DNA of 64,000 nucleotides from Methanomassiliicoccales archaeon LGM-DZ1 (GTDB taxonomy: Archaea; Thermoplasmatota; Thermoplasmata; Methanomassiliicoccales; Methanomethylophilaceae): positions 1,550,001 to 1,614,000 of the forward strand of contig CP115556.1 of assembly GCA_030168595.1 (NCBI GenBank). The letters run 5' to 3'. Shown one piece after another: positions 24,503 to 51,135 of this stretch. Numbering within the stretch: position 1 is the stretch's first letter; the number at the start of each line of letters is the position of its first letter. The position numbers were made by a program, and so were the translations under genes. Under the pieces are notes generated by a model. The model was not told the origin of the DNA, did no database searches, and saw only the letters and a program-made list of their open reading frames with translations.

Positions 24503-24517
24503 TGGATTAATAATCCA
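24503..24517. promoter_or_regulatory. Palindromic operator, chlI-chlD promoter
   Basis: TGGATTAATAATCCA: perfect half-sites TGGAT and ATCCA separated by five bases. It lies 20-34 bp upstream of the chlI start and overlaps the TATTAAT core on that strand. The same site could also serve the divergent small membrane protein gene at 24561. One of seven related sites in the window. Confidence 0.65.
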
Positions 24518-24560
24518 GTATAGGCATCCTTCTTATGAGTTTTTGCAATGGAGGCTCATC

Positions 24561-24878
24561 ATGGCGGACGGAAAAGTGATCGATAAGAGCAAAGAACCGG
24601 AGAAGGCGGAGCCCATGGACTCCCGCCAGAAGAAGCTGCTGGCCATCGGGTTCGGGGTCTACCTGCTGATGGTGCTGGCCATCGTCGCGGTGTACATGGC
24701 GACGGACGATGAGGATACCAGGATGATGGGCATGTACTCGGTATCGACCGCGCTGGTGTTCTTCACCCTGATCTTCGCGGTCTTCGTCTACCGCGGGTCC
24801 GCTTCGGACGAGTACCGCTGCAGGTACGGCGACAAGCTCTCCGACGAAGAGAAAGAGGACTGGAACAAACGGCCGTGA
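24561..24878 (+). CDS. Small two-helix membrane protein of unknown function
   Basis: 105 residues with a charged N-terminus, two hydrophobic spans (about residues 29-49 and 62-84) and a charged C-terminal tail ending DEEKEDWNKRP. The ATG at 24561 has GGAGG eight bases upstream. It diverges from chlI across the palindromic operator and is convergent with cobN1, so it may belong to the same regulon. I do not recognise the family. Confidence 0.7.
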   Translation: MADGKVIDKSKEPEKAEPMDSRQKKLLAIGFGVYLLMVLAIVAVYMATDDEDTRMMGMYSVSTALVFFTLIFAVFVYRGSASDEYRCRYGDKLSDEEKEDWNKRP

Positions 24879-24944
24879 AGCGTGCCCGGCCGCCGGCCTC
24901 TCTTCCGGAGGGATTATCGGCGGTGTGTCTCTCTCGAAGCGCAC

Positions 24945-27900
24945 TCATCTGTCGGTCAGTTCCTCGATCCTCTCCTCGGATTCGAGGTAGAGGTCCTTGA
25001 TCTTCTGGCGGTATTCATCGGAAGCGTTCCACAGGCCTCTGTCGATGGCCTCCTGCAGCCTGTTCAGGATGTTCATCTCGGCGTACGGATTGACCTCTTC
25101 CATCCATTTCCTGGTGTCCTCGTCCAGGAACTTGTCGGTAAGGCCCTCGTACATCCAGTCCTCGGCGGCGTCCGAGGTGGCCCCCCAGGCCATGGTGTAC
25201 TCGGTAATGTTCGCCATCTCGGCCGCTCCCCTGTACCCGTGCTCCTTCAGCCCGTTTATGAACTTCGGGTTGAGCACCTTCGAGCGGAAGACGAACCTAA
25301 GCTCATCCTTGGTGCTGCGGACCTTGGTCCTCTTAGGGTCGGAGCCGTCGCCCATGAAGGTCACAGCGTCCTTCCGCCCGTAGGCGCGGACGAAGGCGTT
25401 CATCCCTCCCAGGTATTCGTAGACGTCGTCGCAGTCCAGGAGATCTATCTCCCTGTCAGGCATGTTCTTCACTGTTACGCCGACCTTGGAGAACCTCTTC
25501 ACGAACTCGTCCCTCATCTTCTGCCCGTAATTGCCTTTCTCGTAGCCGTTGGAGCACCAATCGATGTAGACGTCGGCAAGGTCCTTGACATCCTTCCATG
25601 CGCCGGTCTCGATGGATTTGTTCACTCCCGTGCCGTAGCCTCCCGGCGGAGCGCCGAAGATCCTCACCGAGTTCCTGCGCCGGGCCTCGTCCGGCGTCAG
25701 GCCGGCGGCGATGCCGTCCACGATGTCCTTCCTCAGGTTGGCGGCGAGGGCGTTGTCCTCATCATCCTCGTCGAGGGCGGCCACGATCTTCACCGCATCG
25801 TCGATCATGTCGATGAGATTGGGGAAGGTGTCGCGGAAGAGCCCGGTGATGTTCACAGCAACGTCGATCCTGGGCCTTCCGAGCTCGGACAGGGGCACCG
25901 GCTCCAGGCCGACGACCTGCCCGCCGGCGGATGACCAGACGGGCTTCACGCCCATGAGCCAGAGGATGTACGCCATGTCGTCCCCGCCGGTCTTCATGGT
26001 GTCCGTCGCCCAGATGATGAAGCCGACCTCCCGGGGATACTCCCCCTTCTCGGCGACGTACTTGTCGATCATCTCGTCGGCCATCCGCTTCCCAATCTCC
26101 CAGGATGCCTTCGTCGGGACGGTGTCCGGGTCCAGGGAGTAATAGTTCCTCCCGGTCGGGAGGATGTCGGCATTGCCGCGGGTCGGGGCACCCGAAGGGC
26201 CGGGCAGGATGTACTTCCCGTCCATGCCGTCCAGGAGGCACTGCATCTCGTCCCCCATGCGGCGGACGTTGGGGACCACCGAGGAGCACATGAAATGCAC
26301 CGAGCCCTTCAGATCATCCGATACCTTCCCGTGCAGCTCCCTGAGATGTGCCAGGCACTGATCCTCATCGAACGAGACCGAATCGCAGAAGGATATGAAG
26401 CCCTGCACTTCGGCGTCGATCCTGTCGACGGCAGCGGAGTTCAATTCTCCCGAGGGGAGGCTTCCGGAAGGATCGGAGATGCACCTCTGGATATCCGTAC
26501 CCTCGTCCTCCGCGAAGGCGTCGCGGAGGCTCCTGACGTCCCCGTTGTCGAGCCTCATCAGCGAATAGACGGTCTCCAGGAAATGCCCGTTCTCGGGGAC
26601 CTTTCCGAGCACGTGCAGGTCGGCCCTCACCAGGGCGTCCTTCACCTCCGAGATGTAATCGTGGAGCTTCACGATGTACGGCTCGAAGCCCTCCGGTCCC
26701 GGATCCGAATCGGCAAGGCCCAGGTCGTTCAGCATCTTGGCGTCCCTGGCGGCCTCGTAGATGTTCTTCACCATCTCCCGGCGGCGCTCGGCGTCGTTCG
26801 TGCCCTTGTTCCGGAAGTACTCCTGCAGCGGGACCTCCACCTTGGCTATGTCGTCGTATCTGCCGGCGCGCGCCATCGACGGCGGCATGTGCCCGTCGAG
26901 CACCGACTCGGCGCGGCGCTTGCACTGGATCCCCTCGCCCGGGTCATCGATGATGTAGATGTAGAGGTTCGGCACATTCCCGAGCACGACATCGGGGTCG
27001 CATTTGGCCGAGAGCCCGACGTTCTTCCCGGGGAGCCATTCCAGGGTCCCGTGGGTCCCGACGTGGATGATGATGTCCGCTTTGAACACGTCCCTGATCC
27101 AGCGGTAATATGCCAGATACTGGTGCTGGGCGAACAGCAGCGGGTCGTGGATGCTCTGCTCGAACTTGTCGGCCATGCCGCGGAGGGGCTGGTAGCCGAT
27201 GAAGACGTTGCCTTTGACGAGCCCGGGGATGATGATCTTCCTGCCGTCGGTGCAGATCTCCCCGGGAGGCTCCCCCCAGTCCTTCTCCATCATGGCGCGG
27301 TCCCATTCCGGGACCTGCGAGTACTCCCGGAGGTAGTCGTCCCTGTCCACGAGGTCCGCGGCCTTCTTCCTGACCGTCTCCAAGGACATGGAATCGAGGT
27401 CGTTGGTGACGTTGTCCAGTATCTCCCCGATGAGCTCCTTCCCGTTCTCCGGGACGTTCTCCACGCTGTACCCTTCCTCTTTCATCCTCCGGAGGAGGCC
27501 GGCGATGCTCTCCACGGAGTCGAGGCCGGCGGCGTTCCCGATGACCCCTGAGTTCGCGCGCGACTGCCAGAGGAGGATGGCCACCCTCTTGTCCTTCTCC
27601 GGGATGTGCCTGAGGCGCGCCCAGCGGTATGCCAGGTCCACGGCGGCCTCGATGCGGTCGGGGATGGCGATATTCCGTTTCATCCCGCTCTTCTTCGGCG
27701 TGTAGGCTATCGGCACGGCGATGATGTCGCCGTCGATCTCCGGGAAGGCGACGTTGTTGGTGATCTCGTGCTTGCCGAGGCCGACCTTCTCTGTCTCGTA
27801 ATCGGCGTAGTCCCCGGTTATCGTCATGGTGTGGATCATCGGGACGCCCAGCAGCGAGGCGTAGTAGTTGTCGGCGTCGGCGATCCTGACGCCCTCCCCC

Positions 27901-28697
27901 TCCCTGGAGTTGTACATTACGGAGAACGAGGTATGGACCAGGACGGCGTCCGGTATCGGGCTGCCGTCGTCCCTGAGGAAGTACTTCCTGAACGTCGCCT
28001 TCGTTCCCTCCTCGCCCTCGGTCTTGTAGGATACCGCCGAGAAGAAGACGGGGAGCGCGTTCATGCCCCTGCGCTCGATCTCGTCGGTCAGGGCATCCAC
28101 CGCGGCGAGGTTGTCATAGATCCAGAGGGTGCTGGCGAACAGTATCCCTACGGTCATCTTCGAGGGATCGAGGGTCCTGAGGTAATCCTCCTTCGAGATG
28201 TTCCTGTCCATCCCCTTATGATAGATGCCGTCCTTCCTCTGGGTCTTCGGTTCCGGGGGCACGGCATCGGTCTTCCCGAGCCCGTGCGCCGCGTACAGCA
28301 CCATCCCCCAGTCGTTCTCCGGCCCGCGGGAGGCCGCGTACCTGCAGATCTCCCGGTATTCATCGTCCCTCCCTCTGAAGAGGTCGCGGTTCATCAGCGT
28401 GACCTCGGCGTTGCCGCTGAACAGCAGCACCCACCCGGGGCATTTCTCCAGCGCCTTCCTGTAGCGGTCGAAGCGCTTGAAGCGGCAGGTGTCCGACATG
28501 CACCGGAAGTAGACGAAGTCCGCCTGCTCCGTGCGGTCCTCCAGCTCCTTGTATACGAGGACGTCGTCGTCCGCTTCCTCCGCGTTGATCGCATAGACAT
28601 CGGGCTCGATCCCCAGTTCCCTGAGCTTCTCCGCCGGGGCTGCGAGCACCTTCGCGTCAGCCGTCTGCAGAGACAGGACGACGATTCTCATCTTCAT
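24945..28697 (-). CDS. cobN: CobN/ChlH-like metal chelatase large subunit (paralogue 1)
   Basis: Large tetrapyrrole-binding subunit that inserts metal (cobalt in CobN) into the ring, driven by the ChlI/ChlD-type subunits. The 1250-residue protein matches CobN throughout: KVAIL-type middle domain, HVGTHGTLEWLPGK near residue 560, DDPGEGIQCKRR, PTGRNYYSLDP and WATDTMKTGGDD. Starts at 28697 (MKMRIVV) and 28691 are both possible; the frame runs on upstream but without homology. The palindrome at 28701-28715 almost touches the start codon. It shares this whole architecture with the gene at 30017. Which metal and ring it uses is not shown by sequence. Confidence 0.92.
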   Translation of the reverse strand: MKMRIVVLSLQTADAKVLAAPAEKLRELGIEPDVYAINAEEADDDVLVYKELEDRTEQADFVYFRCMSDTCRFKRFDRYRKALEKCPGWVLLFSGNAEVTLMNRDLFRGRDDEYREICRYAASRGPENDWGMVLYAAHGLGKTDAVPPEPKTQRKDGIYHKGMDRNISKEDYLRTLDPSKMTVGILFASTLWIYDNLAAVDALTDEIERRGMNALPVFFSAVSYKTEGEEGTKATFRKYFLRDDGSPIPDAVLVHTSFSVMYNSREGEGVRIADADNYYASLLGVPMIHTMTITGDYADYETEKVGLGKHEITNNVAFPEIDGDIIAVPIAYTPKKSGMKRNIAIPDRIEAAVDLAYRWARLRHIPEKDKRVAILLWQSRANSGVIGNAAGLDSVESIAGLLRRMKEEGYSVENVPENGKELIGEILDNVTNDLDSMSLETVRKKAADLVDRDDYLREYSQVPEWDRAMMEKDWGEPPGEICTDGRKIIIPGLVKGNVFIGYQPLRGMADKFEQSIHDPLLFAQHQYLAYYRWIRDVFKADIIIHVGTHGTLEWLPGKNVGLSAKCDPDVVLGNVPNLYIYIIDDPGEGIQCKRRAESVLDGHMPPSMARAGRYDDIAKVEVPLQEYFRNKGTNDAERRREMVKNIYEAARDAKMLNDLGLADSDPGPEGFEPYIVKLHDYISEVKDALVRADLHVLGKVPENGHFLETVYSLMRLDNGDVRSLRDAFAEDEGTDIQRCISDPSGSLPSGELNSAAVDRIDAEVQGFISFCDSVSFDEDQCLAHLRELHGKVSDDLKGSVHFMCSSVVPNVRRMGDEMQCLLDGMDGKYILPGPSGAPTRGNADILPTGRNYYSLDPDTVPTKASWEIGKRMADEMIDKYVAEKGEYPREVGFIIWATDTMKTGGDDMAYILWLMGVKPVWSSAGGQVVGLEPVPLSELGRPRIDVAVNITGLFRDTFPNLIDMIDDAVKIVAALDEDDEDNALAANLRKDIVDGIAAGLTPDEARRRNSVRIFGAPPGGYGTGVNKSIETGAWKDVKDLADVYIDWCSNGYEKGNYGQKMRDEFVKRFSKVGVTVKNMPDREIDLLDCDDVYEYLGGMNAFVRAYGRKDAVTFMGDGSDPKRTKVRSTKDELRFVFRSKVLNPKFINGLKEHGYRGAAEMANITEYTMAWGATSDAAEDWMYEGLTDKFLDEDTRKWMEEVNPYAEMNILNRLQEAIDRGLWNASDEYRQKIKDLYLESEERIEELTDR

Positions 28698-28700
28698 AGT

Positions 28701-28715
28701 TGGATGATATGTACA
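28701..28715. promoter_or_regulatory. Palindromic operator (degenerate), cobN1 promoter
   Basis: TGGATGATATGTACA: the left half TGGAT is intact and the right half is degenerate, but flanks AGTTG and CAACT add symmetry. It ends three bases before the cobN1 start. A TATA-like TTTCTAAG lies a little further upstream on the same strand. Confidence 0.45.
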
Positions 28716-29011
28716 ACTCTTAGAAAACGATGTCTGACGGGGAGGTACCGGCCCCGGAGCATCCATGACTGTCCCTTCTGCTCCGGGGCCTCCTATCTCT
28801 CTCCCTTGGACGATGGGCCTGCACAGGCAGGTCCGCTCCCGGAACGGCCGCTCAGGAGGCGATCGGCACGTTCCGGGCCTGAGCAGTTTGCGCTTATGAG
28901 TATAGAATGATGCCGTCCGAAGGATTGATGAACCCTTCAGAGAGCCTGTCCGGTCCCGCCGGTCCCCTGCAGGGATCCAGGGCGGGCAGGCAGGCTCTTG
29001 ATGCTTTTTTT
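28716..29011 (+). ncRNA. Candidate structured RNA or regulatory intergenic element beside cobN1
   Basis: A 296-bp gene-free stretch unusually rich in perfect inverted repeats. They are a 12-bp stem GGCCCCGGAGCA (28750-28761) with TGCTCCGGGGCC (28779-28790), and a 9-bp stem CCCGGAACG (28838-28846) with CGTTCCGGG (28869-28877). A 7-bp stem GCTCAGG (28850-28856) with CCTGAGC (28878-28884) interlocks with the second. A long hairpin has outer arms AGAGCCTG (28941-28948) and CAGGCTCT (28991-28998), followed by seven T residues at 29005-29011. The last part looks like a plus-strand terminator. No plus-strand gene precedes it, so an RNA transcribed divergently from cobN1 is plausible. No known family recognised. 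Confidence 0.4.
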
Positions 29012-29914: not shown

Positions 29915-29971
29915 GCACAGAGCCGGCGACCTCATGGCCCTCGTTCCGGCCCTCAATCCACATTTGTTGAT

Positions 29972-29986
29972 TGGATTATACATCCA
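29972..29986. promoter_or_regulatory. Palindromic operator, cobN2 promoter
   Basis: TGGATTATACATCCA: perfect TGGAT and ATCCA half-sites with a five-base spacer, directly followed by TAAATAG, the probable TATA box of cobN2. This is one of the two best copies of the shared motif. Confidence 0.65.
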
Positions 29987-30016
29987 TAAATAGTGCCCGG
30001 CGGATTAAGGGGAGGA

Positions 30017-33000
30017 ATGAACAGGATCTGCGTCCTCGGGATCGGCTCGCATACCGGCTTCCTATACCTGAAACCCGTCGCCGAGCTTCGTTCAGAAGGA
30101 TTTGACATAGAAGTTCTGGCAGGCGACTCATCGGAACTGGACAGCGATCCGGAGAAACTGGCTAGGTTCATGTCGGAGGCCCGCGGCTGCTGCGTGATCC
30201 TGGTCGCCGCGCATGGGGATGTGACCTTCTTCCGCCACTGGGACGCGTTCAGATCGCTCGCGCAGGAGGAGCGGATCCCGATAGCCGTAGCAGGGGTCAG
30301 CAAAGAGCTCGACGGACCCTACCGGTCCCTCTTCACCGGTCCTGCCGAAGAGCGTGAGAGGGTGAGGCTGCTGATGGAGGTTGGCGGCGACGCCAACCTG
30401 CGTTCGGTCCTCATCTGGTGCCTGAAGAACTTCGGCGGTAGGCCGGACCTAGAGGTTCCTCCGCCCGAGCTGCCTCCGGCCCAGGGCGTGTACGTCCCCG
30501 GAAGGAAGGAGGCCCTGACCCTGGAGGAGGGCCTGAAGGATGTCGGGAGGTCCGGAAGGCCCGTCATCATGATCCTGTTCGTGGACGCATACTATATCAG
30601 GCACAACACCGGCGCCATAGACTTCCTGCACAGCGAGGTCCGGAAGGCCGGCGGAGAACCTGTCTGCGTCTTCCTGCACACCTATCCCGACCCTGCGACC
30701 GGGTCGCTGGGCATCTCGAGGATCGTGGACACCTATCTGCTCCGCGATGGGAAGCCGATCATCGACGCCGTCATCAACACCATGGGGTTCTCGCTGTCCG
30801 TCATCGCTGTGCCGGGATGCGGGGAGCAGAAGGCTCCCGATGATTTCCTTTCCCGCCTCGGCGTTCCCGTGATCCAGGCGATAAACCTCTACGGCAGCGC
30901 GGATGATTGGAGGAAGAGCCCGTTCGGGCTCTCGGCCGCGGACATCGCGATGAGCGTCGTCTCCCCGGAATACGACGGGGACATCGACGGCGTCCCCTAC
31001 TGCGGGACGGAGAAGTCGGAGGACGGGGAATACAGGCAGGCCGCGATACCGGACCGCTGCGGAGCGCTCGCGGAGATGGCCGTGAGATGGGCAAGGCTGC
31101 GTCATATCCCCGAGAAGGACAAGAAGGTCGCCGTCCTCATCTACATGTACCCTCCGAGGCAGGACCTGGCGGGCGGAGGGTACGGCCTTGACACCATGGA
31201 GAGCGTCTGCCGGATCCTGGCGGAGATGAAGCGCCGCGGATACTCGGTCGACTGGGTCCCGGAGGGGTCCAAGGACCTCGCGGACAGGCTCCTGGCGGGG
31301 ATCACCAACGACGACAATTGGCACTCCGATGAGCAGATGCGCAAGGCCGCGGTGGACCTGGTGTCCCCTGAGCAGTACGCGGAATGGTTCTCGGAGGTCC
31401 CGGAGAAGGTGCGGAAAGCATTCATCGATGCGTGGGGGGACCCTCCGGGGGACATCCACACCCTGGACGGGAACCTGGTCCTGCCCGGCATCATGGACGG
31501 GAACGTGTTCATCGGGTTCCAGCCGGACCGCGGGAAGTGCACCTCGGAGGCCTACCACGACCCGGACACCGCGCCTCCGCACCAGTATCTCGCTTTCTAC
31601 CGCTGGCTCAAGGATGTGTGGAAGGCGGATGCACTCATCCACGTCGGGACCCACGGAACCCTCGAATGGCTTCCCGGGAAATCGGCCGGGCTGTCCTCGG
31701 AGTGCGATCCAGACATCATCCTCTCCCGGATGCCCAACATCAACCCCTACATAATCGATAACCCGGGCGAGGGGATGCAGTCGAAGCGCCGGCAGTACGC
31801 GGTGACGACCACCCACCTGATCCCGGCGATGGCCCGCTCCGGAGGCTACGACGAGATCAACCGCCTCGAGCTGGCGGTGCAGCAGTACCTGCAGGCACGG
31901 GACCAGGGGCAGGCGGACAAGCTCCCGGCCATCTCCGCGGAAGTTCGGAAGATGTGCGCGGAGATGAACATGCTCGGGGACCTGGCACTTTCGCCTGAAT
32001 GCTCCGATGAGACCCTCGACGCGCAGATGGACCGCCTCTACGACTACATCCTCGAGGCCAAGGATGCCATGATCAAGGACGGGCTTCACATCCTCGGCGA
32101 CGTCCCGGACGGGAAGAGGATGGCGGAGACCGTGTACATGCTGGTCCGTTCCAGGAACGGCGATGTTCCCTCCCTGAGGGAATCCGTCGCCCGTGCCCTC
32201 GGGTTCGAACTCAATGATCTTCTGAAGGATGCCTCCGCGGTCCTGCCCGACGGCAGGGTCAGCGGGCAGGCGCTGCAGGAGATCGATGACGGGGTGTTCT
32301 CCCTGATCGAAAGGTCCCAGAGCGCCGGTTTCGATACGGATCAAGCCTTGGAGGAGGCCCGCCGCATGTTCCCCGGAGCCGGCCCTGACCTGGAGGAGGC
32401 GGTGCGCTTCATGTGCGGTTTCGCAGTCCCGGCGGTAAGGAGGATGGGTGACGAGATCGGGAACGTCATGAAGGCCCTTGACGGGGGATTCGTCCCTCCC
32501 GGGCCCTCCGGCTGCCCCAACCGCGGCCGGGCGCAGATCCTCCCAACAGGCAGGAACTTCTACTCCATCGACCCCGACGGGATACCTTGGAAACCGAGCT
32601 GGGACATCGGTTCGGCCATGGCCGAGCAGATGGTGGAGAGATACGTTTCCGACCACGGGGTGTACCCCCGTTCCGTAGGCGTCGTCCTGTGGTCCACCGA
32701 CACCATGAAGACGGGCGGCGACGACGTCTCCTACATCCTGAAGATGATGGGCCTCCGCCCCGTGTGGGCGGACTACGGGGGCCGCGTGAAAGGTCTGGAG
32801 ATCATCCCCTTGTCGGAGCTGAAGAGGCCGCGCGTCGACGTGACGGTGAGGATCAGCGGCCTGTTCAGGGACACCTTCCCCAACCTGTGCGTGATGATCG
32901 ACGACGGGGTACGCAGGATAGCGGAGCTCGACGAGGACGATGAGGACAACTATCTGGCGGCCAACGTCCGCCGGGACACCGTCGAGGCCATCGCGCAGGG

Positions 33001-33760
33001 GATCCCGCCCGACCGCGCCCGCAGGGAAGCGTCGTTCCGCGTGTTCGGGGATGCTCCGGGCGTCTACGGCGGAGGGGTCAGCGAACTGATCCAGACCGGC
33101 AGGTGGGAGAGCACGAAGGACCTGGGCGAGGCCTACCTGGCCAAAGGCGGCTACGTCTACGGCAGGAGGCAGGCCGGCGAGGCCCGCCCCGACCTGTTCA
33201 GGAAGCGCCTGTCGGGGATGGACGCGACGGTGAAGAACCACAACACGCGCGCCGTCGACATGCTGGACATGGACGACGACATGGACTACCTCGGAGGCTT
33301 CAGCGCTGCCGTGGAGGCCGTCCGGGGGCAGAGGCCGGAATCCTACATGGGCGATTCCTCCGATACCCAGAATCTGAAACTTAGGACGTCCCGCGAGGAA
33401 TGCGCCTTCATATTCCGCAGCAAGATCGACAACCCGAAGTGGCTGGACGGCCTGAAGGAGCACGGCTTCGCCGGCGCCAAGGAGCTCTCGAAGCTGTTCG
33501 ATTACACCATGGGATGGTCGGGGACCTCGGGGATAGTCGAGGAGTGGATGTACACCGACCTGGCGGAGCGCTTCGTCCTGGACAAAGGCACGAGGGAATG
33601 GATCAAGGACGTCAACCCTTACGCGATGGCCGCCATGCTGGCACGTCTGTACGAAGCGAAGAAGAGGGGTTTCTGGAACCCCGATGATGCTATGATGTCT
33701 GAGCTGAAGGACGTCTACCTCGAGTTCGAGGAGAGGATCGAGGAGATCACCGACAGCTGA
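30017..33760 (+). CDS. cobN: CobN/ChlH-like metal chelatase large subunit (paralogue 2)
   Basis: Second CobN-type chelatase large subunit, 1247 residues, colinear with the one at 24945-28697: HVGTHGTLEWLPGKSAG, DNPGEGMQSKRRQ, PTGRNFYSIDP and WSTDTMKTGGDDVSY are all kept. The N-terminal 250 residues diverge most, where ring or metal specificity could differ. The ATG at 30017 is preceded by AAGGGGAGGA; a GTG at 29993 is less likely. A probable TATA element immediately follows the palindrome and lies about 25-30 bp before the ATG. The two paralogues are divergently arranged around the aldo/keto reductase. Confidence 0.92.
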   Translation: MNRICVLGIGSHTGFLYLKPVAELRSEGFDIEVLAGDSSELDSDPEKLARFMSEARGCCVILVAAHGDVTFFRHWDAFRSLAQEERIPIAVAGVSKELDGPYRSLFTGPAEERERVRLLMEVGGDANLRSVLIWCLKNFGGRPDLEVPPPELPPAQGVYVPGRKEALTLEEGLKDVGRSGRPVIMILFVDAYYIRHNTGAIDFLHSEVRKAGGEPVCVFLHTYPDPATGSLGISRIVDTYLLRDGKPIIDAVINTMGFSLSVIAVPGCGEQKAPDDFLSRLGVPVIQAINLYGSADDWRKSPFGLSAADIAMSVVSPEYDGDIDGVPYCGTEKSEDGEYRQAAIPDRCGALAEMAVRWARLRHIPEKDKKVAVLIYMYPPRQDLAGGGYGLDTMESVCRILAEMKRRGYSVDWVPEGSKDLADRLLAGITNDDNWHSDEQMRKAAVDLVSPEQYAEWFSEVPEKVRKAFIDAWGDPPGDIHTLDGNLVLPGIMDGNVFIGFQPDRGKCTSEAYHDPDTAPPHQYLAFYRWLKDVWKADALIHVGTHGTLEWLPGKSAGLSSECDPDIILSRMPNINPYIIDNPGEGMQSKRRQYAVTTTHLIPAMARSGGYDEINRLELAVQQYLQARDQGQADKLPAISAEVRKMCAEMNMLGDLALSPECSDETLDAQMDRLYDYILEAKDAMIKDGLHILGDVPDGKRMAETVYMLVRSRNGDVPSLRESVARALGFELNDLLKDASAVLPDGRVSGQALQEIDDGVFSLIERSQSAGFDTDQALEEARRMFPGAGPDLEEAVRFMCGFAVPAVRRMGDEIGNVMKALDGGFVPPGPSGCPNRGRAQILPTGRNFYSIDPDGIPWKPSWDIGSAMAEQMVERYVSDHGVYPRSVGVVLWSTDTMKTGGDDVSYILKMMGLRPVWADYGGRVKGLEIIPLSELKRPRVDVTVRISGLFRDTFPNLCVMIDDGVRRIAELDEDDEDNYLAANVRRDTVEAIAQGIPPDRARREASFRVFGDAPGVYGGGVSELIQTGRWESTKDLGEAYLAKGGYVYGRRQAGEARPDLFRKRLSGMDATVKNHNTRAVDMLDMDDDMDYLGGFSAAVEAVRGQRPESYMGDSSDTQNLKLRTSREECAFIFRSKIDNPKWLDGLKEHGFAGAKELSKLFDYTMGWSGTSGIVEEWMYTDLAERFVLDKGTREWIKDVNPYAMAAMLARLYEAKKRGFWNPDDAMMSELKDVYLEFEERIEEITDS

Positions 33761-33821: not shown

Positions 33822-34556
33822 TCAGACCTTCCTGTTCTTGATCAGGTACAGGTCGATGAGGTAGAACGCCGCCGCGAAGCAGGCGAGCACTCCCAGCGCC
33901 CAGTACGGGAAGGAGTAGATGTCCAGGGCGGCGGACCTGATGCAGACGCTGGCCTCCGTGAGGGGGAGGGCGTAGAGCAGGGCCTGGGCCCAGCCGGGCA
34001 GGGCCGCGACCGAGAAGAAGGTGCCGCAGAGGAAGGTCATCGGGGTGATGACGACGCTGCTGAATGTGGCCATGGACTGATGGGACTTGGCGAGCAGCGC
34101 GGCGGTCTCGCCGAGGAGCGAGAACGTGAAACACGACAGGAGCACCGAGACGACGAGCAGCGGCGTGAGGTTCATGTACGACGGCTCGAGGGCGTATCCG
34201 ATGATGAACATCAGGGAGCAGCTCAGCAGGCTCTTGCACATACCCAGCACCGTTTTGCCGATGATGATCGCCGAGTTGCTCAGCGGGCACATCATCATCT
34301 CGTCGAAGCTGCGGTAGTACAGCCTCTGGACGTTCATTCTCGTCGATGTGGAGGAGAACGAGGACGAGAGCGATGTCAGGGCGATGATGCCGGGGATGAC
34401 GAAGTCGATGTACGGCACCGTCACGCCCTCGACCTCCACGTCCTGGGCGTCCAGCCCGTACCCGAAGGCGATGAGGTAGAGCACCGGCAGCATCAGGCTG
34501 GAGATCAGGATGTTGACGATGTTGTGGCGCATGAACCTGACGTCCGACCAGGCCAC
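33822..34556 (-). CDS. ABC-2 type transporter permease
   Basis: Six-span ABC-2 (DrrB-like) permease, 244 residues, with PVLYLIAFGYGLDAQ in the first span and the conserved PMTFLCGTFFSV segment. It is clearly paralogous to the permease at 40526-41281 (both have RFMRHN/YYLRRN, LYLIAFGYG/LYLVAFGYG and PMTFLCGT motifs). The first usable start is GTG at 34556, with GAGGT seven bases upstream; an in-frame stop lies nine codons before. It pairs with the ATPase immediately upstream. The stop is followed by a GAAACC-type element and hairpin. Confidence 0.88.
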   Translation of the reverse strand: MAWSDVRFMRHNIVNILISSLMLPVLYLIAFGYGLDAQDVEVEGVTVPYIDFVIPGIIALTSLSSSFSSTSTRMNVQRLYYRSFDEMMMCPLSNSAIIIGKTVLGMCKSLLSCSLMFIIGYALEPSYMNLTPLLVVSVLLSCFTFSLLGETAALLAKSHQSMATFSSVVITPMTFLCGTFFSVAALPGWAQALLYALPLTEASVCIRSAALDIYSFPYWALGVLACFAAAFYLIDLYLIKNRKV

Positions 34557-34583: not shown

Positions 34584-35504
34584 TCACATCCCTCCTTTGC
34601 CGGCCTTGGCATCCCCGTCGCCGTGCTTCTTCAGAAGGAATCCGTTATCCCCGATCTTGTTCCCGGTCATCTCCACGAAGGCATCCTCCAGGTTGGTCCT
34701 CCTGACGGTGACGGTGAACTCGGTGCCGAGGGTCTTGGAGAAGGCGTCCGCTTCCTCCCTGCTCCCGAAGTAGCGGTACTGGGTCTTCTTGTCGGGGCCG
34801 AAGTATTCCACAGTGGCGGTACCGATCCTGCGGGCCAGCTCCTCCGGGGTACCCTCCGCGATGATCCTCCCCCTGTCTATGAAGCCCACCCTGGTGCACA
34901 GGGACTCGGCCTCCTCTATGTAATGGGTGGTCAGGAATATGGTCATCCCGTCCTCGTTCAGCCTCCTCAGGAGGTCCCAGAGGCCTCTCCTGGCCTGGAT
35001 GTCGAGCCCGACGGTGGGCTCGTCCAGGAACAGCAGCTTGGGACTGTGGACCAGGGCGCAGATGATGGCCACCCTCTTCTTCCACCCGCCGGACAGGTCG
35101 TCGACCTTGTAGTCGTAGTACTCCCTCAGCCCTATGTACTCGGCGAGCTCCTTGATGCGGCGCTCGCGGTCCGCCTTGGGCATCTGCTGGTACAGCGCGT
35201 GGGACATCATGTTCTCCCAGACGGTCAGGTCCTTGTCCAGCGAGATGTGCTGCTGGATCACGCCGATGGCCGCCTTGGCCTCCCGCGGCTCCTTCACGAT
35301 GTCGTGCCCGTCTATCTTCACAGTCCCCGAATCGAACCCTGTCAGGGTGCTCAGCACGCGCACGGTGGTGGTCTTCCCCGCTCCGTTGGGCCCGAGGAAG
35401 GCGTACATCTCCCCGCGCCTGACGCGCATGCTGATGCCGTCTATGGCGGTCTTGCCGCCGTATTTCTTCACGAGGCCGTCGACCTCGATTATGCAGTCAT
35501 CCAA
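34584..35504 (-). CDS. ABC-2 type transporter ATP-binding protein (DrrA-like)
   Basis: Exporter ATPase, 306 residues, with Walker A GPNGAGKTTTV, the VQQHISLDKDLTVWENM Q-loop region, signature LSGGWKKR and Walker B LLFLDEPTVGLD. A C-terminal accessory domain of about 80 residues follows. It is a paralogue of the ATPase at 39639. The only start in frame is TTG at 35504 because a TGA lies two codons upstream. The operator at 35535-35549 lies 31-45 bp before the start, which puts the exporter in the same putative regulon as cobN and chlI-chlD. Confidence 0.9.
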   Translation of the reverse strand: MDDCIIEVDGLVKKYGGKTAIDGISMRVRRGEMYAFLGPNGAGKTTTVRVLSTLTGFDSGTVKIDGHDIVKEPREAKAAIGVIQQHISLDKDLTVWENMMSHALYQQMPKADRERRIKELAEYIGLREYYDYKVDDLSGGWKKRVAIICALVHSPKLLFLDEPTVGLDIQARRGLWDLLRRLNEDGMTIFLTTHYIEEAESLCTRVGFIDRGRIIAEGTPEELARRIGTATVEYFGPDKKTQYRYFGSREEADAFSKTLGTEFTVTVRRTNLEDAFVEMTGNKIGDNGFLLKKHGDGDAKAGKGGM

Positions 35505-35534
35505 AAGTCACACTTCCGATATCGCGATTCTGAT

Positions 35535-35549
35535 TGGATTATACATCCT
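35535..35549. promoter_or_regulatory. Palindromic operator, exporter promoter
   Basis: TGGATTATACATCCT: identical to the cobN2 site except for the last base. On the minus strand a TATA-like GATATATAGG lies at about 35551-35560, just upstream of the palindrome, so a bound regulator would sit near the transcription start. Confidence 0.6.
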
Positions 35550-35751
35550 ACCTATATATCGGATTCAGTCGCCAAGCCGCGGTGCTGCCGTCATCAGAGA
35601 TGCGGGCCTGATACGGATCGATGCCTTTTCTTTCAGATCATGCAACGATAATGAGTTGCAGAGTTCGCTATCATATAGAGAAAAAAAGCATCGCCTATGC
35701 ATCATGCAGGTTCGTCAATCATTAATACGGAATCTGCGTTGACGGTGTTAA

Positions 35752-36681
35752 TTGGATATATGTTCCATTGGAGGGGTTCCCGCGGAGATCAAAATCGACG
35801 GACTGACATTCTCGTATTCCAGCACCCCGGTGCTGAAGGACATCACTCTCGATCTGACCGGGCCGAAGTTCGTATCGATTCTGGGCCCGAACGGCGTCGG
35901 GAAATCCACCCTGATCCACTGCATCAACAAGATCCTGTCCCCGACCGGCGGGACGGTGATGCTCGACGGCAAGGATGTCAAGGACATCACGATAAAGGAG
36001 ATGGCCAAGCAGGTGGGCTATGTCCCCTATTCCGCCAACGACACGTTCCCCCTCACGGTCGTCGACACCGTCCTCATGGGAAGGCACCCCCACAGCAAAT
36101 GGGGGTCCCTGGACAAGGACCTGGACATAGTGTACGACACTCTCAAGATGCTCGGCATCTCCCATCTCGCCATGAGGAACTTCAACGAGCTCTCCGCCGG
36201 CCAGCATCAGAAGGTCATGCTGGCGCGCGGGCTGGTCCAGGAGCCCAAGGTGCTCCTGCTGGACGAGCCGACGTCGAACCTGGACATCAGGCACCAGCTC
36301 GACGTTACGAAGATGCTGAAGAGGCTGTCCGATGAGAAGGGGATCCTGGTCATCATGATCAGCCACGACATCAGCATTGCGGCGAAGTTCTCCGACGAGA
36401 TCATCATGCTCAGGGACGGGGCGATCTACGCCGCCGGCACTCCCAATGAGGTTATCACCGAGCCCAACCTCGAGGCGGTGTACGGAGTGAAGTCCCGCAT
36501 CGTCGATGACGACGGGCGCCCGCATGTGATCCTGAAGGACGCGCTGCCGATGGACGACCTCATCGAGAGCGGCGATACCCCGTATCCGGCCATGAACCGC
36601 GCCATAAGGTCCAAGAAGGGCACGGGGGATGCGGGTGCGGCAGGCAGCCAGGTGGCCGCTGACGGTTCGGACAGCGACTGA
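35752..36681 (+). CDS. FepC/BtuD-type ABC importer ATPase, orphan, heading the cbi cluster
   Basis: ATPase subunit of an iron-siderophore/cobalamin type importer, 309 residues, with Walker A GPNGVGKSTLI, DTVLMGRHPHSKW (typical of FepC/BtuD), signature LSAGQHQK and Walker B LLLDEPTSNLDI. No permease or binding protein is next to it. There is no ATG or GTG in a suitable place: the frame opens with TTG at 35752 right after a TAA, inside the operator palindrome. Translation may use this TTG or a non-standard start near the GGAGGGG at 35770. It precedes cbiL by 50 bp. The shared operator suggests it powers the permeases at 48.9-56.7 kb. Confidence 0.85.
   Translation: MDICSIGGVPAEIKIDGLTFSYSSTPVLKDITLDLTGPKFVSILGPNGVGKSTLIHCINKILSPTGGTVMLDGKDVKDITIKEMAKQVGYVPYSANDTFPLTVVDTVLMGRHPHSKWGSLDKDLDIVYDTLKMLGISHLAMRNFNELSAGQHQKVMLARGLVQEPKVLLLDEPTSNLDIRHQLDVTKMLKRLSDEKGILVIMISHDISIAAKFSDEIIMLRDGAIYAAGTPNEVITEPNLEAVYGVKSRIVDDDGRPHVILKDALPMDDLIESGDTPYPAMNRAIRSKKGTGDAGAAGSQVAADGSDSD
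35753..35767. promoter_or_regulatory. Palindromic operator, orphan ATPase and cbi cluster
   Basis: TGGATATATGTTCCA: half-sites TGGAT and TTCCA with a five-base spacer. A TATA-like CATTAATACGG lies about 25-30 bp upstream (35720-35730), so the site covers the likely transcription start, a repressor position. Confidence 0.55.
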
Positions 36682-36731: not shown

Positions 36732-37433
36732 ATGAGAGGCAAGCTCTACGGAGTGGGCGTGGGGCCGGGAGACCCGGACCTCATGACCCTCAGGGCGAAG
36801 GATGTTCTGGAAAAGTGCAGCGTTATCGCCTATCCAGTCAGGAAGCTCGGCGAGGAAGGCGTCGCGCTGAACATCATCAAGCAGCGCGTGGACATCAGCG
36901 GCAAGGAGATCGCCGAACTGCTCTTCAGCATGGATCCTGACGACGAGGTCAGGAAGAAGTGCAGGGCAGAGGCCATGGCCAAGATGTGCCAGATGCTCGA
37001 CGAAGGCAGGGACATCGCGATGGTCACCCTCGGCGACGTGGCGGTCTACAGCACTTACATGTACATTGACAGGGAGATCCGGGAGCGCGGTTACGAGACC
37101 GAGGTCATCCCCGGCATACCGTCGTTCTGCCACGGGGCCGCCCTCGCGCGCCTGCCCCTCATGATCGGAGAGGAGAGCCTCGCCGTCGTCTCGATGGCCA
37201 AGCACAACCTCGCCAAGGCGGAGAAGGCGCTGGATTCCTCGGACAATATCGTCCTCATGAAGGCGTTCTCGTCCATCTCAGACATCGCGGCGATGATGCG
37301 CTCCCGCAGCATCCCCCTGGACCGGGCGACGGTCATGAGCAATATCGGCATGGCCGACGAGTATATCGGACCCCTCGATCCCGAACGTTCTTACGGTTAT
37401 TTCACGACCGTTCTCATCAAGAAAGGCGAGTAA
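36732..37433 (+). CDS. cbiL: Cobalt-precorrin-2 C20-methyltransferase
   Basis: SAM-dependent corrin-ring methyltransferase that methylates C20 of (cobalt-)precorrin-2. The 233-residue protein has the tetrapyrrole methylase fold with KLYGVGVGPGDPDLMTLRA at the start, TLGDVAVYSTYMYI and VIPGIPSFCHGAA, all CbiL-type. The ATG has AGGAG eight bases upstream. It ends in TAA one base before cbiF. First ring-methylation gene in the cluster cbiL-F-H-C. Confidence 0.92.
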   Translation: MRGKLYGVGVGPGDPDLMTLRAKDVLEKCSVIAYPVRKLGEEGVALNIIKQRVDISGKEIAELLFSMDPDDEVRKKCRAEAMAKMCQMLDEGRDIAMVTLGDVAVYSTYMYIDREIRERGYETEVIPGIPSFCHGAALARLPLMIGEESLAVVSMAKHNLAKAEKALDSSDNIVLMKAFSSISDIAAMMRSRSIPLDRATVMSNIGMADEYIGPLDPERSYGYFTTVLIKKGE

Positions 37434-37434
37434 A

Positions 37435-38196
37435 ATGGAGAAAGTGCATTTCATCGGAGCCGGTCCCGGAGACCCTGAGCTCATCACGATAAAAGGAAAG
37501 AAACTGATCGACCAGGCGGACGTCATCATCTACGCCGGCTCCCTCGTCAACCCCGCGGTCCTCGCCGGGAGGAAGAAGGATGCCGAGGTCCACGACAGCG
37601 CCTACATGAACCTCGACGAGGTCATGGACGTGATGATCCCGGCGGCCAAGGCCGGGAAGAAGGTCGTCAGGGTCCACACCGGGGACCCCTCGATCTACGG
37701 GGCCATCCGCGAGCAGATGGTCAGGCTCGACGCCGAAGGGATAGAGTACGACGTCATCCCCGGAGTCTCCTCGTTCTGCGCCTCGGCCGCGGCCGTGAAG
37801 AAGGAGTTCACCCTCCCGTCGGTGTCCCAGACGGTCATAATCACGAGGATGGAGGGCAGGACCCCCATGCCGGACGGCGAGAAGCTGAAGGACCTCGCCA
37901 GGCACCACGCCTCCATGTGCATCTTCCTCTCTGTGGGCTTCATGGACGAGCTAACCAAGACGCTGCTCGAGGCAGGATACGCCCCAGACTGCCCCATGGC
38001 GGTCGTCTACAAGGCCAGCTGGCCGGAGCAGAAGATCCTCTACGGCACCGTGTCGGACATGGCCGAGAAGGTGAAGGAGAACAAGATCGAGAAGACCGCC
38101 ATGACCATGGTCGGCGGGTTCCTCGGGGACAAGTTCGAGCTCTCCAAGCTCTACGACAGCCATTTCACCACCGGCTACCGCAAGGGGACCGACTGA
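37435..38196 (+). CDS. cbiF: Cobalt-precorrin-4 C11-methyltransferase
   Basis: Methylates C11 of cobalt-precorrin-4. The 253 residues show VHFIGAGPGDPELITIKG, the CbiF/CobM-typical VIYAGSLVNP variant (IIYAGSLVNPAVL), VHTGDPSIYGAIREQM and VIPGVSSFCASAA. It starts one base after the cbiL stop and ends one base before the cbiH start, so it is in the middle of a compact operon. Confidence 0.94.
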   Translation: MEKVHFIGAGPGDPELITIKGKKLIDQADVIIYAGSLVNPAVLAGRKKDAEVHDSAYMNLDEVMDVMIPAAKAGKKVVRVHTGDPSIYGAIREQMVRLDAEGIEYDVIPGVSSFCASAAAVKKEFTLPSVSQTVIITRMEGRTPMPDGEKLKDLARHHASMCIFLSVGFMDELTKTLLEAGYAPDCPMAVVYKASWPEQKILYGTVSDMAEKVKENKIEKTAMTMVGGFLGDKFELSKLYDSHFTTGYRKGTD

Positions 38197-38197
38197 G

Positions 38198-38941
38198 ATG
38201 GCCGGGAAGCTCACCGTCGTCGGCTTCGGCCCGGGCGGCAAAGAGGACATGACCCTGCGCGCCGTCCATGCCATCGAGGACGCGGACATCGTCACCGGGT
38301 ACATCACGTACGTCGATCTCCTGAAGGAGTTCTTCCCCGATAAGACGTACAAGGCCACCGGCATGATGAAGGAGGTCGACCGCTGCCGGTCCGCCATCGA
38401 GGACGCCGCGTCCGGGAAGAAGGTGGCCATCGTCAGCTCCGGCGACTCCGGCATCTACGGCATGACCGGGCTGGTCTACGAGCTCGCCGAGGAGATGAAG
38501 GCCGGGATCGAGATCGAATCCGTCCCCGGCGTGACCGCCGCCTCATCGAGCGCTTCCGTCCTGGGCGCGCCCCTGATGCACGACACCGCCCTCATCAGCC
38601 TGTCCGATCTCATGACCCCCATAGAGAAGATCATGGACAGGGTAGATGCGGCCGGAAAGGCGGATTTCGTCATCGCGCTGTACAATCCCAAGAGCCGCAG
38701 CAGGACCGAGTACCTGGGACAGGCGGCCGACATCCTGCTGAAATACCGTTCCCCCGAGACTCCCGTGGGCATCGTGAGGGACGCCGGCAGGAAGGACCAG
38801 TCCAAGACCCTGACGGTGCTCGGGAAGCTGAAGGACGCCGATGTGGACATGTTCTGCACCGTCGTCATCGGGAACTCCCAGACGTACGTCAGGGACGGGC
38901 TGATGATCACTCCCCGCGGATACCGCGGGAAGAGGTTCTGA
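38198..38941 (+). CDS. cbiH: Cobalt-precorrin-3B C17-methyltransferase
   Basis: Methylates C17 with ring contraction in the anaerobic route. The 247-residue protein has the CbiH/CobJ pattern: VVGFGPGGKEDMTLRA, GYITYVDLL, SSGDSGIYGMTGLVYE, VPGVTAASSSASVLGAPL and ALYNPKSRSR. The cbiG domain sometimes fused to it is absent. Direct continuation of the operon. Confidence 0.94.
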   Translation: MAGKLTVVGFGPGGKEDMTLRAVHAIEDADIVTGYITYVDLLKEFFPDKTYKATGMMKEVDRCRSAIEDAASGKKVAIVSSGDSGIYGMTGLVYELAEEMKAGIEIESVPGVTAASSSASVLGAPLMHDTALISLSDLMTPIEKIMDRVDAAGKADFVIALYNPKSRSRTEYLGQAADILLKYRSPETPVGIVRDAGRKDQSKTLTVLGKLKDADVDMFCTVVIGNSQTYVRDGLMITPRGYRGKRF

Positions 38942-38974
38942 GAAACCGTTTCAATGATATAAGGAGAGAGAAGA

Positions 38975-39601
38975 ATGACATTCGAGATAATGACGCCCCG
39001 CGAGATCGAGGCCAAGAGCATGGAGACCATAACCAAGGAGCTCAACGGGCGCACCTGGCCCGAGCCCGAGTTCTCCATCGTCAAGAGGTGCATACACACA
39101 TCCGCCGACTTCGACTACGCCGACAACCTCTGCTTCAGCAAGGATGCGGCGAAGATCGGCGTCGAGGCGCTGAAGAACGGAGCGGACATCGTCACCGACA
39201 CCAAGATGGCGTACTCCGGCATCAACAAGAACCGCCTCTCCGCCTTCGGCGGGACCGTCCACTGCTTCATATCCGACCCGGATGTCATCGAGGAGGCGAA
39301 GGCCAGGGGATGCACCCGCTCCACCGTCTGCATGGAGAAGGGGGCCAAGCTCGGCAAGCCCACCATCTTCGTCATCGGGAACGCGCCGACCGCCCTCATC
39401 GAGCTGCACAGGCTCATCAACGAGGAAGGCCTGAAGCCGGCCCTCATCGTCGGCGTCCCCGTCGGCTTCGTGAACGTCGTCGAGGCCAAGGAGCTGATCA
39501 TGACCGACGATGTCCCCTACATCGTCGCCAAGGGCAGGAAGGGCGGCTCCAACATCGGGGCGGCCATCATCAACGCCATGATGTACACCATGGGGCGCTG
39601 A
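38975..39601 (+). CDS. cbiC: Cobalt-precorrin-8 methylmutase
   Basis: Moves the methyl group from C11 to C12 to give cobyrinate. The 208 residues begin with IEAKSMETI and contain the catalytic histidine region RCIHTSADFDY, TDTKMAYSGINK and VGVPVGFVNVVEAK, all diagnostic. AAGGAGAG precedes the ATG. The remaining anaerobic steps (cbiD, E, T, G, J, A) are not in the window. The gap of 33 bp before it and 37 bp after it keeps it in the transcription unit. Confidence 0.95.
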   Translation: MTFEIMTPREIEAKSMETITKELNGRTWPEPEFSIVKRCIHTSADFDYADNLCFSKDAAKIGVEALKNGADIVTDTKMAYSGINKNRLSAFGGTVHCFISDPDVIEEAKARGCTRSTVCMEKGAKLGKPTIFVIGNAPTALIELHRLINEEGLKPALIVGVPVGFVNVVEAKELIMTDDVPYIVAKGRKGGSNIGAAIINAMMYTMGR

Positions 39602-46696: not shown

Positions 46697-46799
46697 TGCC
46701 TGGCACATTAAGGGTCTAATCGGTTCCGGATGCTCAAGGCGAAATCAGAAAAGAGCGCTCAGACAGATGAGTATAGTGGAAAAGACCGCCCCATTCAAA

Positions 46800-48578: not shown

Positions 48579-48581
48579 AAT

Positions 48582-48657: not shown

Positions 48658-48810
48658 GGCTGAAATGACCTATTGATATGTGCTATTTAATGGTTGCTGA
48701 ATCGAAGGGGCCGGGCCTGGAATACAGAGGCCAGTACCGGTTCTTGCCTATGCTTCGAAACACGGAATTCCGAAGGAAAACGGGACTTGCAGCATACAGT
48801 ATATCACAAA

Positions 48811-48825
48811 TGGATGATACAGCCA
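48811..48825. promoter_or_regulatory. Palindromic operator, first permease pair
   Basis: TGGATGATACAGCCA: left half intact, right half AGCCA differs from ATCCA by one base. It is followed two bases later by ATAATAATCGG, the probable TATA element for the permease at 48866. The spacing to the TATA box matches that at cobN2 and the 51-kb site. Confidence 0.5.
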
Positions 48826-48865
48826 ACTATAATAATCGGAACATCTATGGGCCCGTGTTCTGAGC

Positions 48866-49981
48866 ATGAAAGGCAATGGACCTGCGGACGGAGCAGTCGG
48901 AGAACCCGGCGGCTGTGAGATGATGGAGGCATATGCCAGATATACCGGCCGCAAGGTCATATTCATCGCTGTCTGCATTGTCGCGATCTTCTGCCTGTTC
49001 TTCGTTTCTCTCATGTACGGTACGCTCGACCTCTCCGTGAGGGATGTGTTCAATCTCTTCTGGGATCACCTTTCGGGCAGGACATACGACCGTATACAGG
49101 AGAATGATGAATGGTTCTCGGACAGGATCCTCTGGGAGTACCGTGTCCCGCGCGCCCTGTTCTGCATAATCGCCGGTTCCTCTCTCGCGGTGGCGGGCGC
49201 CGTCATGCAGAGTGTGATGAAGAACCCGCTCGCCGATGCGTACACTACCGGAGTATCTTCAGGAGCGATGTTCGGTGTGGCGGTCGCTATGGTCCTGGGC
49301 CTTTCCGTCGGGGGCGGGTCCACCGGAGGCGGCGTGGTCATCAACGCCATGGTGTTCTCGATGATCCCGGTGATCGTCATGGTAGCGATGGCCCCTTTCT
49401 TCAAGGAGTCCCCCGCATCCCTGATTCTGGCGGGAGTGGCCACTTCCTACCTGTTCAATGCTATGACGACCCTCATCCTGGTGACCTCGGATTCCGCCGA
49501 TCTCCAGACCGTCTACCGCTGGCAGGTCGGCTACCTTGCGGATATCCGCATGGATTCTATCCTGCCGACGTTCCTGACGGCGGCGATCGGATCAGCGATT
49601 CTCATCCCCCTGTCCAGGAAGCTCAATCTGATGGCCATGAGCGATAACGAGGCCAAGGCCCTCGGGGTGAACGTCAACCTGCTGAGGATCGTCTGCCTGG
49701 CCGTCATGTCATGCATGGTCGCGACAGTTGTCAGCTACGCTGGGATAATCGGATTCGTGGGCCTGGTGGTGCCTCATATCGTGCGCATGGTCATCGGTTC
49801 GGACAACAGGTTCGCCCTTCCTGCATCGGCGGTCTTCGGGGCGCTGTTCTTCCTGTCCTGCGACATCATCTGCAGGGCGAACTATTGGGGCGGCGAGACG
49901 CCTACCGGCGTCATCACCTCTCTTGTCGGCGCTCCGATCTTCATGTTCCTGATCGTGAGATCGAAGAAGGGGATGTGGTGA
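48866..49981 (+). CDS. FecCD-family ABC permease A
   Basis: BtuC/FecCD-type permease, 371 residues, with AGAVMQSVMKNPLADAYTTG and GFVGLVVPHIVRMVIG. The N-terminal extracytoplasmic segment (WDHLSGRTYD followed by WFSDRILW) pairs it with the permease at 54492 rather than with its neighbour, so it is the A type of a heterodimer. The ATG at 48866 lies about 28-38 bp after the TATA element; an internal ATG at 48923 is an alternative. No ATPase gene is adjacent. It is followed by permease B after 18 bp. Confidence 0.9.
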   Translation: MKGNGPADGAVGEPGGCEMMEAYARYTGRKVIFIAVCIVAIFCLFFVSLMYGTLDLSVRDVFNLFWDHLSGRTYDRIQENDEWFSDRILWEYRVPRALFCIIAGSSLAVAGAVMQSVMKNPLADAYTTGVSSGAMFGVAVAMVLGLSVGGGSTGGGVVINAMVFSMIPVIVMVAMAPFFKESPASLILAGVATSYLFNAMTTLILVTSDSADLQTVYRWQVGYLADIRMDSILPTFLTAAIGSAILIPLSRKLNLMAMSDNEAKALGVNVNLLRIVCLAVMSCMVATVVSYAGIIGFVGLVVPHIVRMVIGSDNRFALPASAVFGALFFLSCDIICRANYWGGETPTGVITSLVGAPIFMFLIVRSKKGMW

Positions 49982-49999
49982 GATGGCGGGAGCGGCGAT

Positions 50000-51100
50000 A
50001 TGAATTTGGAGATAACGATGCCGGATCCGAAAAGGATCTATAAAGCATCGAAAAGGCGGAGCCTGCTCCTGACTCTGGCGGTTGCCGCCGCCTGCATCAT
50101 CGTGGCAGTCTATTCTCTCGGGATAAACGCCTATGACATGACCTTCTCCGATGCCTGGAGCGTGTTCATAGACCATCTGAAGAACGGAAGGCCGGAGAGA
50201 GTCGTCGGAGATCATGACAGTTACGTCACCTGGCTGACGGACTATGTGGTGGTCTACAGCAACGCTTCCCGCATCGCCGCGGCCGCGGCCGTCGGGGTGA
50301 TCCTCTCGGTCGGCGGATCCGTGATGCAGACGGTGACGCACAATCCTCTCACCGAGCCCTATACCATCGGGATATCGTCGGCCGCCCTGCTGGGTTACAG
50401 CATCGCCATGGTCTACGATGTCTGCATCCTGCCTTTCGCGTCGGGGGATGCAGCGGAGATAATCAACGCTTTCGTGTTCTCGCTGATGCCGGCATCGGTG
50501 ATCCTCTTCATATCGGTCTTCAGGAAGATGACGCCGATGATGATGGTGCTGATCGGCATCGGGATGATGTACTTGTTCTCGGCGTTCAGCACCTTTGTGC
50601 GCTTCAATGCGTCCGAGGAGGACCTTAAGACCATCTACGATTGGACCGTCGGGAGTGTCGGGAGTGTCGATTGGGACCAGACGGCGATCCTCTTGATCGC
50701 CGCAGCGTTGCTGGCACTTCTGTTTATACTCGTATCTAGGTCGGTGAATGTTCTTGCCACGGGGGATGATGAGGCACATGGACTCGGCCTTAATGCCGTC
50801 CTGTTCAGGGTGTTCTGTTTCGTGGCAATCTCGGTGGCAGTGGCCATCGCAGTATGCTATACCGGGACCATCGGTTTCGTTGGTCTGGTCGCGCCTCATA
50901 TTGCCAGGCTGTTCACGGGAAACGACAACCGTCTTCTCATACCCGCGTCGGCGGCCGTGGGGGCCCTCATGATTATCGCCGGGGATACGCTGGTGAGATG
51001 GCTTCCTGGTGGCCTCCCGGTCGGAGTGATCACGGCCATCATAGGGAGCCCGCTCTTCCTGTACTTCCTATACAGGCAGCGTAAGAACTCGCTCTTCTGA
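50000..51100 (+). CDS. FecCD-family ABC permease B
   Basis: BtuC/FecCD-type permease, 366 residues, with GGSVMQTVTHNPLTEPYTIG and GFVGLVAPHIARLFTG. Its first external segment (YDMTFSDAWSVFIDHL) matches the permease at 55595 (YDISLVHSWEVFIGHL), so it is the B type. GGGAG lies seven bases before the ATG at 50000. With permease A it probably forms a heterodimeric channel serving the double-headed binding protein encoded next. Confidence 0.9.
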   Translation: MNLEITMPDPKRIYKASKRRSLLLTLAVAAACIIVAVYSLGINAYDMTFSDAWSVFIDHLKNGRPERVVGDHDSYVTWLTDYVVVYSNASRIAAAAAVGVILSVGGSVMQTVTHNPLTEPYTIGISSAALLGYSIAMVYDVCILPFASGDAAEIINAFVFSLMPASVILFISVFRKMTPMMMVLIGIGMMYLFSAFSTFVRFNASEEDLKTIYDWTVGSVGSVDWDQTAILLIAAALLALLFILVSRSVNVLATGDDEAHGLGLNAVLFRVFCFVAISVAVAIAVCYTGTIGFVGLVAPHIARLFTGNDNRLLIPASAAVGALMIIAGDTLVRWLPGGLPVGVITAIIGSPLFLYFLYRQRKNSLF

Positions 51101-51120
51101 GCATCTGGCATTGTGCATAT

Positions 51121-51135
51121 TGGATGATTATTCCA
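51121..51135. promoter_or_regulatory. Palindromic operator, double-headed binding protein
   Basis: TGGATGATTATTCCA with flanks extending the symmetry to ATTGGA and TCCAAT. It is followed at once by ATATATTTATAAGG, a strong TATA box. It lies between permease B and the binding-protein gene, giving the latter its own promoter. Confidence 0.6.

Follow-up and report, generated by a model that had tools for sequence, protein, structure and literature searches.

Genes and palindromic sites in the window

The window, a stretch of 64,000 nucleotides of Methanomassiliicoccales archaeon LGM-DZ1 (contig CP115556.1), carries genes for cobalt chelatase subunits, corrin synthesis and transporters, with palindromic sites in front of them (Table 1). 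An earlier note on this DNA had described seven such sites, of the form 5+5+5, and had proposed that a single metal- or corrinoid-responsive transcription factor acts on them. The source genome is a single contig of 1.77 Mb, and genes were called by our own codon score.

Table 1. Putative operator sites in the window and the genes behind them (positions within the window; aa, amino acids; ABC, ATP-binding cassette; ORF, open reading frame)
Feature	Position	Strand	Location	Matrix score (rank)	Family match
Site 1	24502..24518		between chlI (-) and 105-aa ORF (+)	23.2 (4)
Site 2	28700..28716		4 bp upstream of cobN1 (-); right half degenerate	19.6 (6)
Site 3	29971..29987		31 bp upstream of cobN2 (+)	25.0 (2)
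Site 4	35534..35550		31 bp upstream of ABC-2 exporter ATPase (-)	23.7 (3)
Site 5	35752..35768		upstream of lone importer ATPase and cbiL-F-H-C (+)	16.4 (7)
Site 6	48810..48826		upstream of FecCD permease pair (+)	22.6 (5)
Site 7	51120..51136		upstream of large binding protein (+)	28.9 (1)
Site 8 (new)	51163..51179		in tandem with site 7, starts 43 bp apart	15.1 (8)
chlD-type chelatase subunit	21527..23455	-			NCBIfam BchD-ChlD/putative cobaltochelatase, below cut-off
chlI-type chelatase ATPase subunit	23452..24483	-			NCBIfam BchI-ChlI and putative cobaltochelatase, neither reaching the curated cut-off
cobN1, cobaltochelatase large subunit	24945..28697	-			TIGR02257, above cut-off
cobN2, cobaltochelatase large subunit	30017..33760	+			TIGR02257, above cut-off
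ABC-2 exporter permease	33822..34556	-			Pfam ABC2_membrane
ABC exporter ATPase	34584..35504	-			Pfam ABC_tran
Lone importer-type ABC ATPase	35830..36681	+			Pfam ABC_tran
cbiL, cbiF, cbiH, cbiC (four consecutive genes)	36732..39601	+			NCBIfam
FecCD-type permease 1	48866..49981	+			Pfam FecCD
FecCD-type permease 2	50018..51100	+			Pfam FecCD
Surface binding protein, 1075 aa	51214..54441	+			Pfam Peripla_BP_2 and List_Bact repeats

Loose matches to the palindrome (up to two mismatches) were not enriched in the window, 26 being found against 34 expected in shuffles. As this window-only count was uninformative, the whole window was scanned instead with a 23-column matrix, for which 109 intergenic sites in 18 genomes other than this one had served as training set. 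The seven best positions (scores 16.4–28.9) were the seven sites described before, whose sequences were all confirmed, and an additional eighth site at 51164 (TTGGACGTAAGCTCCAA) was detected, while the next-best position scored 5.5. All eight matches scoring at least 14 were intergenic, in a window of which ~10% is non-coding, compared with 0.07 per 64 kb in a first-order Markov simulation. The site at 28701, earlier called degenerate, was so in its right half and yet ranked sixth, whereas a one-mismatch match at 48594, inside a tRNA-Asp gene, scored only 1.7. The complete importer at 43.7 kb was without a site, as had been reported, the best score there being 1.2. An IS110-type transposase gene (46944–48047) lies between this importer and the permease pair.

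The 5+5+5 core was real, but the full palindrome indicated by the matrix was 17 bp rather than 15 bp, TTGGAT-KWWWM-ATCCAA with an A/T-rich centre. The distances to gene starts had been put at no more than ~55 bp; they were 4–79 bp depending on start choice (20 or 74 bp for site 1 and chlI). The nearest start codon was within ~67 bp for half of the sites, in A/T-rich surroundings, and some sites were 100–200 bp upstream of genes. Paired sites, 20–160 bp apart, were common in relatives.

Distribution of the palindrome

The exact 15-bp core (15-mer) occurred 12 times in this genome and the reversed pattern 3 times; with up to one mismatch the counts were 62 and 8. The reversed pattern is possibly a weak control, containing words that are rare in many genomes, and genomes of other members of the class are a better one. 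The core was found in all 61 Methanomassiliicoccales genomes searched and the exact 17-bp palindrome (17-mer) in 50 of them, in up to 18 copies, compared with no 17-mer in 26 other genomes of the class and about one third of a match per genome in the rest of the phylum (our own tally). In four genomes in which all exact sites were inspected, 34 of 35 17-mers and ~60 of 71 15-mers were intergenic (our own tallies), so that matches were not equally common inside genes.

Target genes beyond the window and in relatives

The genome-wide list of exact and near-exact sites was drawn up from stretches of the genome. Importer operons were found behind sites at 251, 1425, 1494, 1498, 1506 and 1511 kb, cobQ at 33 kb, a third cobN at 1419 kb, a NifH/nitrogenase-like pair at 1502 kb and, with two sites in front of it, a cobT-containing operon at 620 kb. 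At 1627 kb, cbiM followed a site and a second chlI-like gene was divergent from it. At 290 kb an MtaC-like gene was divergent from CobW-like genes and a RamA relative. In relatives, genes behind sites encoded a precorrin-2 dehydrogenase-type NAD-binding protein, CbiD, CbiC, a CobB/CobQ-like protein, BtuR, CbiZ, a ribonucleotide reductase and the peptide-modifying radical S-adenosylmethionine (SAM) enzyme CbpB. CbiN and a tetrapyrrole methylase were also among the targets. Several equivalog matches among these targets were below curated cut-offs. The targets were mostly cobalt and corrinoid genes, the concentration that the earlier note had proposed to test for with a matrix scan, here seen in silico.

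Sites were also kept at orthologous promoters. They were present before chlI in G022 (score 34.2) and G058 (26.5), which represent two other genera, one of another family; before cobN1 in G022 (6 bp upstream, 27.6); before cobN2 in G058 (33.9); before the exporter in G022 (27.8) and G058 (16.7); and 15–23 bp upstream of the lone ATPase in G007 (27.2), G022 (29.6) and G058 (20.0). Promoters of chlI, cobN, lone-ATPase and exporter orthologs thus retain sites across genus boundaries and in one further family, though most of these loci had been chosen for containing one.

A 31-aa cysteine-containing ORF, MSVVMCRMEC[KR]VDGNGLSHYIIYDGAGELPF, was seen directly behind a 17-mer in G050 (L158:3066-3161) and G058 (L063:3879-3974). 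It adjoins a radical SAM gene, whose G058 copy matched CbpB over the cut-off; because of this position, a modified peptide appears to belong to the regulon. A literature search for the CbpB peptide returned nothing usable.

A NifH-like domain was fused to a nitrogenase-component-1 domain in two proteins (L027:2151-5605 and L090:4098-6185) encoded behind exact or near-exact sites. The nearest families were CfbC and NifH, below cut-off; a second protein of the NifH/nitrogenase-component-1 type followed the first in L027, and a CbiZ gene was divergent from the fusion gene in L090. The binding protein L027:6892-8235, the one tested from the importer operons, carried a dockerin type I domain at its N-terminus, and its counterparts in L026 and L027 looked alike by eye. 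In G049 and G052, which have one exact 17-mer each, a site preceded a small secreted-protein ORF (L110:3054 onwards and L111:2551 onwards), that of L111 having no Pfam match.

A putative cobalt/corrinoid supply regulon

We read the sites as operators of one order-wide regulon for cobalt and corrinoid supply, to which we assign a probability of roughly 85%. Because the palindrome is symmetric and used by divergent promoters, its ligand would be a dimeric DNA-binding protein, occupying TTGGAT-KWWWM-ATCCAA in an A/T-rich promoter stretch, mostly within ~80 bp of the start codon. The bound protein would most likely repress while corrinoid (or cobalt) is plentiful; on scarcity it would be released, and corrin synthesis, cobalt insertion, import of cobalt and B12, and salvage would be switched on. 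Repression rather than activation is likely, being the simplest reading for supply genes, and the effector is probably a corrinoid, cobalt or a related metabolite, to judge from gene content. Of the earlier proposal, the palindrome shared by the promoters of cobalt and corrinoid genes, as expected of a regulon under a transcription factor, was borne out; the single factor and its effector we still infer. An Rfam search at gathering thresholds of the window and four regulon loci (L023, L024, L026 and L027) gave only one tRNA and no cobalamin riboswitch, the upstream element by which a cobalamin riboswitch regulon would be recognized.

DUF4443 proteins as candidate regulators

Two paralogous DUF4443 proteins share a GEGS(M/T)R motif in the helix-turn-helix. 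The short one (195 aa, without DUF2111) was present in most of the 61 genomes; the long one is a winged-helix protein of 320 aa that contains DUF4443 and DUF2111 and lies beside methanogenesis genes in G058 and G037. The short protein of this genome shares 97% identity with its counterpart in 'Candidatus Methanomethylophilus sp. 1R26', which places the genome within Methanomethylophilus or close to it. It matched DUF4443 over the cut-off and aligned to PH0730 along its length, thus having the DUF4443 domain and, by prediction in a close relative, the PH0730-type N-terminal winged helix of DUF4443/PH0730-like regulators. An AlphaFold model of a near-identical relative (mean predicted local distance difference test score 75) was a predicted winged helix, with PH0730 as the best match and the CggR DNA-binding domain as the next.

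In 13 of 15 genomes of families f2–f6, an exact core was located at the start of the long gene itself, usually ~20 bp ahead of it. As this is far above chance, the DUF4443 family probably binds such cores, although the site might also serve the divergent neighbour. These own-start sites were GGATGGAT-N5-ATCCATCC-like (L059, L071, L097-L099, L102-L108, L144, L145 and L147). In G058 and G037 a related but distinguishable palindrome, ATGGAT..ATCCAT, preceded corrinoid-protein and mcrB-like genes (named by eye) and may be recognized by a paralog. G044 and G047 retain 11 and 10 17-mers, respectively, but no long paralog was detected in either, which favours the short paralog for the corrinoid sites.

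A DUF4443 winged-helix protein is accordingly our best candidate binder, at slightly better than even odds; that it is the short paralog is a reasonable guess falling somewhat below them. More tentatively, two paralogs with a common half-site may split the metabolism of the whole order, the short one governing corrinoid and cobalt supply through TTGGAT..ATCCAA and the long one methanogenesis genes and itself through GGATGGAT..ATCCATCC, with the sites told apart only by bases outside the core.

In G012 a variant, TGGATGTATACTCCA, occurs in three copies (L130:4086; L131:2040 and 3473), upstream of zinc-ribbon-like genes and of operons with extra DUF4443 paralogs. Own sites of the short gene in G038, G049 and G052 were considered but not upheld, since those of G049 and G052 lie in front of the secreted-protein ORF, which comes after the gene. 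A literature search found no paper mentioning DUF4443 or DUF2111. The one mention of PH0730 found in the literature searched was a table entry among winged-helix families of Pyrococcus furiosus (PMC6316755).

Opposing evidence and alternative explanations

Several observations weigh against a corrinoid supply regulon under the short DUF4443 protein. Some sites are not close to any obvious cobalt gene. In the fetched loci 118 of 126 near-exact sites were intergenic, but the loci of relatives were mostly fetched for holding a site, so that this count and the orthologous-promoter results carry some ascertainment bias, from which the window ranking and the counts in the four fully listed genomes are free. 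The short DUF4443 gene adjoins metK (S-adenosylmethionine synthetase) rather than corrin genes, and its own promoter is without a site. In G071, outside the order, metK lies beside a relative of the short gene, yet the 17-mer is absent. Five genomes, G007 among them, gave neither the short gene nor a metK match, which suggests assembly gaps, but G006, with a broken short gene and no metK match, makes this gap test imperfect.

The sites may instead be bound by an unrelated regulator, such as a Fur-type or Lrp-type protein or the methyltransferase-ArsR fusions beside two importers, which we consider unlikely but the most serious of the alternatives. In G050 a Fur-family gene runs divergently from a site, and 5+5+5 palindromes resemble Lrp-type sites. 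Methyltransferases flank importer sites in this genome: L027:5598-6725 has a C-terminal ArsR-type helix-turn-helix by Pfam and L027:10361-11563 looks alike by eye, both beside putative importer operators. However, no such family recurred (by eye) beside exact sites in at least three sampled genomes, Fur and NikR not having been searched order-wide. An Lrp/AsnC-type regulator was rejected, as no site with zero or one mismatch lay near either of the two HTH_AsnC genes of this genome.

It is a good deal less probable that the long DUF4443-DUF2111 paralog regulates the corrinoid sites, controlling methanogenesis and corrinoid genes together. Its promoter has the same 5+5+5 core, as described above, and it adjoins genes that look mcr-linked; but G044 and G047, in which it was not detected, are both 99% complete, and its own sites are usually flanked by A and T (ATGGAT..ATCCAT) and not by T and A.

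An RNA hairpin in the leader is very improbable: the half-sites could pair and many sites are close to start codons, but the symmetric conservation, which extends to the outer T and A, the A/T-rich centre, use by divergent promoters, sites at 100–200 bp and the lack of an Rfam family in the window and the four regulon loci all argue against it. Chance matches in A/T-rich promoters, with which the unenriched loose matches would agree, are contradicted by the genome counts of 15-mers and 17-mers, the absence of 17-mers from the 26 other class genomes and the ranking by the outside-trained matrix, and can practically be dismissed.

Implications and comparison with known systems

The Methanomassiliicoccales make methane from methanol and methylamines via corrinoid-dependent enzymes, and control of corrinoid supply is therefore relevant to their growth in guts and wetlands. 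One member of the order, Methanomassiliicoccus luminyensis, can be grown in pure culture (PMC5688252). The regulon points to roles for a large number of unnamed transporters, the radical-SAM-adjacent peptide and the nitrogenase-like pair, and it yields a short list of candidate regulators.

A word search through the main text of a 2014 paper comparing genomes of the Methanomassiliicoccales (PMC4153887) found none of 'cobalamin', 'B12', 'cobalt' and 'regulator'. The candidate regulator resembles PH0730 (PDB 2p8t) both in sequence (E 3e-13) and in predicted fold (E 2e-10), members of this DUF4443 family being without a function in the literature searched. The CBL-box, reportedly an archaeal B12 operator predicted by Rodionov et al. 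in 2003, would be similar in being a DNA signal ahead of archaeal B12 genes whose regulator was not known; a literature search for the CBL-box with archaea and cobalamin returned nothing usable. Bacterial cobalamin-riboswitch regulons comprise corrin synthesis, cobalt chelatase and transport, B12 importers and salvage. The regulon proposed here differs from them in having a DNA palindrome near the promoter, and no riboswitch in the window and the four regulon loci, but it covers much the same set of genes.

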